Source: Azospirillaceae bacterium
GTDB taxonomy: Bacteria > Pseudomonadota > Alphaproteobacteria > Azospirillales > Azospirillaceae
Assembly (NCBI GenBank): GCA_031291675.1
Contig: JARLIO010000013.1
Span: forward strand, 1 to 64,000
Direction: 5' to 3'
DNA length: 64,000 nucleotides
This document shows positions 11,286 to 13,569 of this stretch, piece after piece; position 1 is the first letter of the stretch; each line of letters starts with the position of its first letter. Both the position numbers and the translations under genes were made by a program. Below the pieces are notes generated by a model. It worked only from the letters and a program-made list of their open reading frames with translations, made no database searches and was not told the DNA's origin.

Positions 11286-11750
11286 TCAACCGGTCCGGCT
11301 GGCCTGCAGCGCCCGGCATAGTGCCATTGTTTCGCTTTGCAAGCGCTGAAGCTGACCAAGGCTCATCCCCGACGCCGCAAGAATGCAATTTGGGATCGCG
11401 TTCGCCCGCTCGCGCAACGCCCGGCCGGCGTCGCTCAACTGCACCCGAACCTGACGCTCGTCATCCGGATCGCGCGACCGCCGCAGGTAATTCGCGGTTT
11501 CCAGGCGCTTCAACAGCGGCGTCAATGTGCTCGATTCCAGTGAGAGTTTGTCGCCGATGCTGCCGACCGTCTGATCGTCGCGTTCCCACAAGGCGACCAT
11601 CACCAGATATTGCGGATAGGTCAGGCCCAGCGGATCGAGCAGCGGCTTGTAGACCCGGGTGAACGCGTGGCTGGTCGCATAGATCGCAAAGCAGAGAAAG
11701 TCATCCAGCGACGGCATCACGTCGGGCGGCACGGGCGTTTCGGCCATCAT
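11286..11750 (-). CDS. ohrR: OhrR, MarR-family organic-peroxide sensor
   Basis: About 154 residues, starting at ATG 11750 or 11747. The motif LCFAIYATSHAFTRVYKPLL carries the reactive cysteine of OhrR near residue 20, followed by the conserved LGLTYPQYLVMVALWE and the winged helix (LESSTLTPLLKRLE, then RDPDDERQV). OhrR represses ohr until its cysteine is oxidised by organic hydroperoxides. A second cysteine (IPNCILAA) is in the C-terminal part, as in two-cysteine OhrRs. The target ohr is divergent, with a promoter at 11808-11837 and AT-rich repeated GCAAT/ATCGC motifs at 11775-11805 as possible operator. Confidence 0.92.
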   Translation of the reverse strand: MMAETPVPPDVMPSLDDFLCFAIYATSHAFTRVYKPLLDPLGLTYPQYLVMVALWERDDQTVGSIGDKLSLESSTLTPLLKRLETANYLRRSRDPDDERQVRVQLSDAGRALRERANAIPNCILAASGMSLGQLQRLQSETMALCRALQASRTG

Positions 11751-11807
11751 GAACCTCAAGGGCAGATCACCCGCAATTTATATCGCACGCAATCAAATCG
11801 CAAGCGC

Positions 11808-11837
11808 TTGACACCGCGCGGCGCAACAGGCTATACA
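11808..11837 (+). promoter_or_regulatory. Sigma-70-like promoter upstream of ohr
   Basis: TTGACA (11808-11813) and TATACA (11832-11837) are 18 bases apart. Transcription would start near 11845, leaving a leader of about 360 nt before ohr. The AT-rich stretch 11775-11805 between it and ohrR holds imperfect inverted GCAAT-CAA-ATCGC and is the best candidate OhrR operator. Confidence 0.55.
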
Positions 11838-12203
11838 TCGCCAACAAAACAATCGCGTACGATATGACGACCAAAAACGTTTGAGGGGGATCGGATGACG
11901 CCCGATGACGGCGACGGTATTTCTCATTTTCCGTGGCGCCCCGGCATCCCCGGTGATACCAAGGCCAGGCAGCAAACGGGACGCACACGGAAGAGTCGTA
12001 ACGGTTCGCATCCCCGATGTATCGCTTTGGTCCCGCGACTCCCGGTCCCGGCTGGGGCAGCGACGCCGCGGTCGCGCTGTCGAACGTGAACGTTTCCCGG
12101 GGCCCCGGACGCCAGGCCGCACGCCTGGCCGCGACAAAGCCCCGATCACCGACGCCCGATGTGCGGGCGCCTTTTTTGCCAATGTCGAAGAAGGATCGTG
12201 AAA
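11838..12203 (+). other. Long ohr leader or independent small RNA
   Basis: Between the promoter and ohr there is no gene of a known family. A strong ribosome site (GAGGGGG) precedes ATG 11895, opening a 64-codon frame. Another frame (11905-12201) stops two bases before the ohr ATG. Both are arginine/proline-rich and look non-functional. Hairpin GCCAGGC...GCCTGGC lies at 12112-12129, and a full intrinsic terminator at 12153-12177. Either a ~330-nt RNA is made and ohr is read through, or this is an attenuated leader. Confidence 0.4.
12153..12177 (+). terminator. Intrinsic terminator 27 bases before ohr
   Basis: CGCCCG (12153-12158), loop ATGTG, CGGGCG (12164-12169), then CC and TTTTTT (12172-12177). 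It is complete and on the same strand as ohr, so transcripts from 11808-11837 must pass it to express ohr, unless a second promoter exists. Confidence 0.7.
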
Positions 12204-12629
12204 ATGTCTGTCAACGTTCTCTATCGCACCACCGCCCGCGCCACCGGCGGCCGTGATGGCCATGCCGCCACCCTTGACGGCACGCTCGATGTCAAGCTGA
12301 CGACCCCCAAGGAGCTCGGCGGCGCCGGGGGTGCGGGCAATAATCCGGAGCAACTGTTCGCCGCCGGCTATTCCGCCTGCTTCCTGGGCGCGATGAAGTT
12401 CGTCGCCTCACAGGGCGGCCCCAAGGTTCCGGCGGACACCAGCGTCACCGCGACGGTCGGTATCGGCCCGCGTGCCGAGGGTGGCTTCGGCATCACGGTA
12501 TCGCTCGACATCGCCCTGCCCGGCCTGGATCACGCCGCGGCCGAGGACCTGGTCGCCAAGGCCCACCAGGTGTGCCCCTACTCCAACGCGACCCGTAACA
12601 ATGTCGACGTCAAACTGACCGTCGTCTGA
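12204..12629 (+). CDS. ohr: Organic hydroperoxide resistance protein Ohr
   Basis: The 141-aa protein has both catalytic cysteines in context: [13 protein letters not shown] and [13 protein letters not shown], plus the typical [11 protein letters not shown] segment. Ohr is a dimeric thiol peroxidase that reduces organic hydroperoxides using lipoylated proteins as reductant. The ATG at 12204 has GAAGGAT upstream and gives the usual N-terminus [20 protein letters not shown]. Its repressor OhrR is divergent. A hairpin without T run (12661-12689) follows the gene. Confidence 0.95.
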
Positions 12630-12761: not shown

Positions 12762-12971
12762 TCAACCGCGCCCTCCGGCCATCGCATCGTCAAGCAGAAT
12801 CCGGAGCGCCCGGGCGCGCGCCGTGAGGCGATATTCCCGGTAGGTTCCGCCATCGGCGGCGGGAACCGCCTCCAGAATGCCGCGCGCTTCCATCTTTGCC
12901 ACGCGCATCAGAAGCGCCTTCTTCGCAAGCGCGAGACGGTGCCCGATTCTCTCAAAGTGCTGCCTGCCCAC
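12762..12971 (-). pseudogene. Remnant of an HxlR-type winged-helix regulator
   Basis: The 69-residue frame reads FERIGHRLALAKKALLMRVAKMEARGILE followed by YREYRLTARARALRILL. This is the second half of an HxlR-family DNA-binding domain (recognition helix, wing and the Y-x-L-T-x-x-G-like segment). The first ~35 residues of the family, with the CPV and GGKW motifs, are missing, and an in-frame stop lies not far upstream of the GTG at 12971. I read it as a truncated remnant; a functional short variant is possible but less likely. Confidence 0.5.
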
Positions 12972-13151: not shown

Positions 13152-13242
13152 TCCGCGGTCAGCCGGGTTGTCGAATCAAGGACTTCATCAAGGGTCTGGC
13201 TGCCCGGGGCGTGGTCTCGTGGGGTGCGTCATCGAATTTGCG

Positions 13243-13338
13243 ACCGTCGCCCTCGCGAACGCGGGGGCCCAGAGCCGCAAGCTCCGAACGATGGCGCCTG
13301 GGTCCTGGATGCCCGCGTTCGCGAGCATGACGGTGGCG
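13243..13338. repeat. Dispersed palindromic repeat element, copy 1
   Basis: The left arm contains CTCGCGAACGCGGGGGCCCAG and the right arm, reverse-complemented, reads GTCATGCTCGCGAACGCGGG, so the ends are inverted copies around a ~45-base core. The same arms and core words recur at 37133-37229. This is a mobile or REP-like intergenic element, non-coding. Confidence 0.7.
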
Positions 13339-13569
13339 AGAGACCCTCTCATTGTCAGCGACGCGAGCCAGTCGCCGCCCGGGACGTGGTCCAGGCCCGC
13401 TGCGGCGATGACCGCACGCGGTAGCGAGCAAGGGACCGGCGATCCGGCGGGTCCCGGCGCAAACCTCACTGCGGTCATTCCCGGTTTCACATTGAAATGC
13501 TCGCGAGATCGTCTTGAAACCTTTCCGGTCCATGATCCGCTCCACGATCACTTTGAAGGATGGCTGATC

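Follow-up and report, generated by a model that had tools for sequence, protein, structure and literature searches.

The window, i.e. the whole 64,000-nucleotide stretch analysed, carries a gene for an organic hydroperoxide reductase (ohr) and, divergently oriented beside it, a gene for a MarR-family regulator (ohrR), with feoA and feoB lying beyond the latter (Table 1). The ohr product scores 188 bits against TIGR03561 (curated cut-off 88.85), which places it among the Ohr peroxiredoxins of the OsmC/Ohr family. The ohrR product carries the MarR domain and scores 136 bits against the NCBIfam OhrR model NF052638, below the curated cut-off of 200, and with its position adjoining ohr it has the features of an OhrR-type MarR neighbour. 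The same arrangement of ohrR beside ohr with OhrR-type palindromes between them is described in Sinorhizobium meliloti, with an intergenic region of 113 bp and palindromes of the GCAAATT type (PMC3107159), and in Agrobacterium tumefaciens, where one operator with the site TACAATT-AATTGTA serves both ohrR and ohr (PMC5201249). The window differs from these described systems by its intergenic region of 444 nt, by an inserted leader and by a terminator-like hairpin between the operator and ohr.

Table 1. Features of the ohrR-ohr locus and of the leader preceding ohr, with positions in the window
Feature	Position	Strand	Basis
ohrR, MarR-family regulator, divergent from ohr	11286..11759	-	PF01047 E 2.8e-17; NF052638 E 6.7e-40
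OhrR-type palindrome O1, ATCGCACGCAAT	11782..11793		Exact ATYGYRYRCRAT match; same promoter-relative position in relatives
Predicted ohr promoter: TTGACA 11808-11813, 18-nt spacer, TATACA 11832-11837	11808..11837	+	Consensus counting; relatives
OhrR-type palindrome O2, ATCGCGTACGAT	11852..11863		Exact ATYGYRYRCRAT match
Extra leader sequence of the lineage, apparently non-coding	11872..12186	+	Box-to-ATG distance, homology searches; ends approximate (inference)
64-aa frame, GAGGGGG 11883-11889 before ATG 11895; probably not a gene	11895..12089	+	GC3 0.64, z 1.33
7-bp hairpin GCCAGGC-CGCAC-GCCTGGC preceding the terminator-like one	12111..12129	+	Read from sequence; in minimum-energy fold
Hairpin resembling a terminator: stem of 6 G-C pairs, 5-nt loop, CC spacer, T6	12153..12177	+	Sequence scan, folding
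ohr ribosome-binding region (GAAGAAGGATCGTGAAA)	12187..12203	+	Read from sequence
ohr, organic hydroperoxide reductase	12204..12629	+	TIGR03561 E 6.9e-56, above curated cut-off; OsmC PF02566

An upstream in-frame ATG at position 12159, inside the hairpin loop, would give ohr 15 more residues and may be picked by automatic gene callers; it was rejected as the start since the alignment with the relatives begins only at the ATG of 12204. The sequence GAAGGATC upstream of ohr is also present in L049. Further along, a 69-aa frame on the minus strand (12762-12971) reaches 19.4 bits against PF01638 (HxlR), for a threshold of 20.8, and is probably a truncated HxlR regulator gene. The stretch 13220-13490 looks non-coding and contains inverted G+C-rich words (GAACGCGGGGGCCCAG, with its mirror near 13300), presumably resembling dispersed alphaproteobacterial repeats.

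By consensus counting, the TTGACA-TATACA pair matches at 11 of 12 places and is the top site in the whole of 11760-12203, 366 nt ahead of the ohr ATG; the automated promoter scan misses it, as a -10 box must end in T to be recognised by that scan. The form ATYGYRYRCRAT has exactly two matches in the 64 kb, at 11782 and 11852, one on each side of this promoter. Palindromes of the same form surround a TTGAC promoter in the ohr upstream regions of the relatives, and several of these loci (L006, L012, L015, L029, L048 and L074) place it between two palindromes, as in the window, with AATCGCAAGCGCTTGACA identical between L048 and the window. Since it lies between two OhrR-type palindromes, like its counterpart in the relatives, 11808-11837 is, as judged from its sequence, a regular OhrR-controlled ohr promoter, in agreement with the initial annotation, which had assigned it to ohr. 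In Chromobacterium violaceum, the 12-nt palindrome ATAGTGCACTAT is reported to be common to both OhrR-protected regions and the ohrA promoter to be overlapped by the OhrR footprint carrying it (PMC3469484); related palindromes are found in the window. The operator form thus differs between C. violaceum, A. tumefaciens and S. meliloti, and the palindromes of the window are putative OhrR-binding sites.

The distance between this operator region and the gene is the first unusual trait of the locus. The sample considered here comprised 111 ohr loci with the window included, 14 others having been dropped as repeats of the window or of another locus; picked by Ohr identity and heavy in Bradyrhizobium, it is biased toward close Ohr sequences. 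A divergent ohrR within 1000 nt of ohr was found in 71 of the 111 loci, and 69 of these 71 have a recognised palindrome, which L109 and L113 lack; the count of distances leaves aside the divergent loci with a gap of more than 1000 nt (L057, L068, L071 and L080). From the last palindrome to the ohr ATG the window measures 340 nt, for at most 182 nt in the 68 other divergent loci and a median of 41 nt over all 69, and the earlier observation that the leader is unusually long is thereby borne out. The runner-up with 182 nt is L059 (Thalassospira). The gaps of about 350-400 nt seen in Roseibium (L045, L073, L078) result from where the start of ohrR was estimated, and the last palindrome of these loci is 33-85 nt from the ATG. 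The C. violaceum ohrA transcript is reported to start probably 36 nt before the start codon (PMC3469484), in contrast with the 340 nt that separate palindrome and ATG in the window. The leader is thus about eightfold the median length, and its lengthening by about 310 nt is most likely specific to the lineage. As a separate observation, the 182 nt of L059 (Thalassospira sp. HJ) include an 8-bp hairpin before ohr, GCAGGTGC-TCTT-GCACCTGC, which is not followed by a T run.

The second unusual trait is the hairpin at the end of the leader, with the stem CGCCCG/CGGGCG at 12153-12169 around the loop ATGTG, CC at 12170-12171 and six T at 12172-12177. The 6-bp stem and the TTTTTT had been read correctly in the initial annotation, and the distance from the T run to the ohr ATG, then given as 27 bases, is corrected here to 26 nt. 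Under a strict terminator definition (stem of at least 6 bp, at least 5 G-C pairs, T6) this is the sole site on both strands of the 64 kb, and 391 kb of the genome contain only one other, which has a 14-bp stem and lies 24 nt behind a gene. As hairpins with T6 are nearly absent from this genome, transcription of most of its genes probably stops through Rho or at hairpins devoid of a T run, which agrees with Methylosinus sporium, where hairpins of the latter kind are reported to be preferred (PMC12403871). Among the relatives, a hairpin with a run of at least five T within 450 nt upstream of ohr occurs in 0 of the 70 other divergent loci. Over the 81 loci with a palindrome, a run of at least five T between the last palindrome and the ATG is found only in the window and in L079, where T7 comes without a qualifying hairpin. 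Two upstream terminators of the loose type were rejected as comparable cases: in Burkholderia ubonensis (L083) the site closes an ohrR lying on the strand of ohr and is followed by a promoter-like stretch, and in L007 it lies beyond the end of a 205-aa frame, also on the ohr strand.

Whether the hairpin is just a chance sequence has to be weighed, in which case the length of the leader would be its only unusual property and little or no termination would occur. The Markov controls yield 0-3 strict sites per 391 kb, so that the genome-wide count is near chance, and a loose definition finds 2 sites in 3 kb where 2.6 are expected; moreover, the CC that separates the stem from the T run would be expected to weaken a terminator. 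Against this, the chance of a strict site in the 338-nt leader is about P 0.0013 under the Markov model, for a site that was itself picked out of 64 kb, and the stem, made of G-C pairs only, forms in all the nascent lengths folded, with a pairing probability of 0.68-1.0 at every start and end point. We accordingly regard a mere chance hairpin as unlikely, and because of the CC spacer the predicted terminator is likely to be leaky and imperfect.

Three ways by which ohr could be expressed in spite of this hairpin had been put forward in the initial annotation: read-through, antitermination or a second promoter. The last one is not upheld for sigma-70, as consensus counting gave no sigma-70-like site of at least 8/12 in 11866-12203, and the need for read-through or antitermination stands. 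A second promoter of another type close to ohr, making the leader irrelevant to the gene, appears highly improbable. The sequence GGGCGCCTTTTTTGCC at 12165-12180 does present the GG-N10-GC of sigma-54 promoters and matches at 8 of 12 places, but 127 sigma-54-like sites scoring at least 8 are present in the 64 kb, which is the level of chance. A terminator-like end of ohrR followed by a putative ohr promoter exists in B. ubonensis, whereas the relatives with the gene order of the window have their promoter-like site between the palindromes, and the 26 nt from T run to ATG leave little room for another one. With no second sigma-70-like promoter and so little room, transcription of ohr would have to come from the promoter at 11808-11837 and pass the hairpin.

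In a repeat search of its own genome the single match of the leader was itself, and no convincing relative of its DNA was found in 39 relatives, 82 family genomes, 22 named-locus genomes and 385 class genomes, the order being represented by the same 82 genomes as the family, the genus by one genome, and the own genome being counted in each set. Matches other than itself are G+C-rich stretches of about 23-53 nt, with a best per-genome E of 2.8e-5, none of them falling in the ohr loci examined, and we take them as chance in large searches; a search of plasmids gave matches of 23-35 nt in seven records at E 0.3. No match at the gathering score was obtained with Rfam in the 64 kb, and at a limit of E 10 the region 11760-12240 gave one chance match, to the lncRNA model HTT-AS1_3 (E 3). 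Compared with shuffled sequences, the leader shows no excess of structure when folded (z -0.12).

These results bear on the possibility that the leader is an independent, peroxide-inducible small RNA acting in trans (about 11844-12177), with ohr as its read-through product. The stretch from the OhrR-type promoter to the end of the hairpin-T6 would indeed make a 334-nt RNA with two hairpins at its 3' side. However, the short G+C-rich matches are all that the 82 family and 385 class genomes offer, and the lack of an Rfam match and of a folding signal also argues against such an RNA, which we consider very unlikely.

The reading frames of the leader do not resemble genes. Besides the 64-aa frame, a 98-aa frame (11905-12201) spans the terminator, and the frames of the leader have a GC3 of 0.62-0.70 with z of 1.3-2.8, for 0.84 and 8.6 in ohr. 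Searches of NCBIfam, Pfam and PHROGs returned nothing for the 64-aa and 98-aa frames. A 79-aa frame (12017-12256) had one Pfam match at E 0.085, which was rejected. In plasmids the 64-aa frame has matches at E 0.1, and the 98-aa and 79-aa frames have none; in the family genomes the best matches of the leader frames are at E 8.8e-4, 6.3e-4 (with two stops) and 1.9e-4. A decayed gene was likewise rejected: one frame over the whole leader reaches z 3.2, but 247 of 500 Markov leaders have a 30-codon stretch as good as or better than the best one. With neither coding signal, family nor convincing homologue, there is no indication of a translated leader peptide, and the suggestion that a short frame with a strong ribosome site couples translation to termination is not sustained.

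A broader form of this suggestion is that the leader acts in cis as an attenuator or riboregulator, termination at 12177 being relieved by peroxide, a ligand, a protein or ribosomes translating the 64- or the 98-aa frame, as a second layer added to OhrR. Several traits of the window would suit it: the hairpin with T6 stands directly before the ohr ribosome site, a strong-looking ribosome site precedes 11895, and the 98-aa frame crosses the terminator, so that a coupling to translation is possible in principle, ribosomes close to a Rho-independent terminator having been reported to repress it (PMC4824070). Ends of transcripts within 5'-UTRs are also documented in Alphaproteobacteria, with 62 of them in M. 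sporium (PMC12403871), and the window likewise has a predicted transcript end in a 5'-UTR. In addition, 11897-11907 is an exact 11-nt copy of the 5' side of the terminator, a coincidence seen in 2 of 5000 Markov leaders. However, exact repeats of at least 11 nt anywhere in the leader occur in 56 of 1000 Markov leaders, and the pairing probability between this copy and the 3' side of the terminator is 0 in the ensemble, so that no antiterminator is predicted and folding at nascent lengths revealed no mutually exclusive structure. The leader is conserved in 0 of 70 divergent relatives, and the frames on which a coupling would rely are without coding signal. As compared with attenuators based on intrinsic terminators, the window showed neither a leader peptide nor a ligand site, nor any alternative fold, nor conservation. 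The literature searched contained no ohr gene with an attenuation layer on top of OhrR, and we know of no RNA-level control layer in the ohr gene family.

A dedicated RNA switch or a peptide-coupled attenuator is therefore not supported, and a cis-acting regulatory leader in the wider sense is unlikely. The initial annotation had raised RNA-level control of ohr beside OhrR and named as its test the presence of the hairpin and T run in relatives of the same gene order; they are absent in 70 of 70, and this, with the negative results on conservation, Rfam families, folding and a competing helix, speaks against the proposal. Its most specific version, a genus-specific leader RNA of about 330 nt, inducible by organic peroxide and terminated or released by a second signal, so that ohr would be under both OhrR and attenuation, seems quite improbable.

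The history of the locus could involve a transfer. The family to which the window belongs is probably Azospirillaceae, since one of its genomes, G016, and Skermanella stibiiresistens (L067, Azospirillaceae) have identical Ohr sequences. A quick tree based on few columns groups the Ohr of the window, at supports of 87-91, with sequences from other alphaproteobacterial families and away from almost every other Azospirillaceae copy. On this sequence evidence the ohrR-ohr pair may have been transferred.

The explanation we favour, with a confidence that is moderate at best, is that of an ordinary OhrR-repressed, organic-peroxide-inducible ohr unit, whose 5' leader would have gained about 310 nt of non-coding sequence peculiar to the lineage and whose expression would proceed by leaky read-through. 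Inactivation of OhrR by peroxide would allow the RNA polymerase to start near 11844; a share of the transcripts would end at 12172-12177, giving an RNA of about 330 nt that would mostly be a by-product, and the remaining ones would pass the imperfect terminator, with its 6-bp stem and 2-nt CC spacer, and express ohr. The terminator would at most lower the ceiling of ohr expression, and no ligand, peptide or factor would be necessary. Leaky read-through is the simplest reading because it requires no additional component and fits a leader that is neither conserved nor coding. Two observations count against it: a strict site is improbable in the leader, and its place 26 nt before the start codon is the one expected of an attenuator.

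In a genome almost devoid of hairpins followed by a T run, such a site should be called a switch only once RNA data support it. Regulation of the terminator, if it took place, would put ohr under a further control at the RNA level besides OhrR. In the leaky read-through that we favour, the locus would illustrate that a gene can tolerate sequence inserted between itself and its operator, the promoter, the operators, the ribosome site and the coding sequence being intact.
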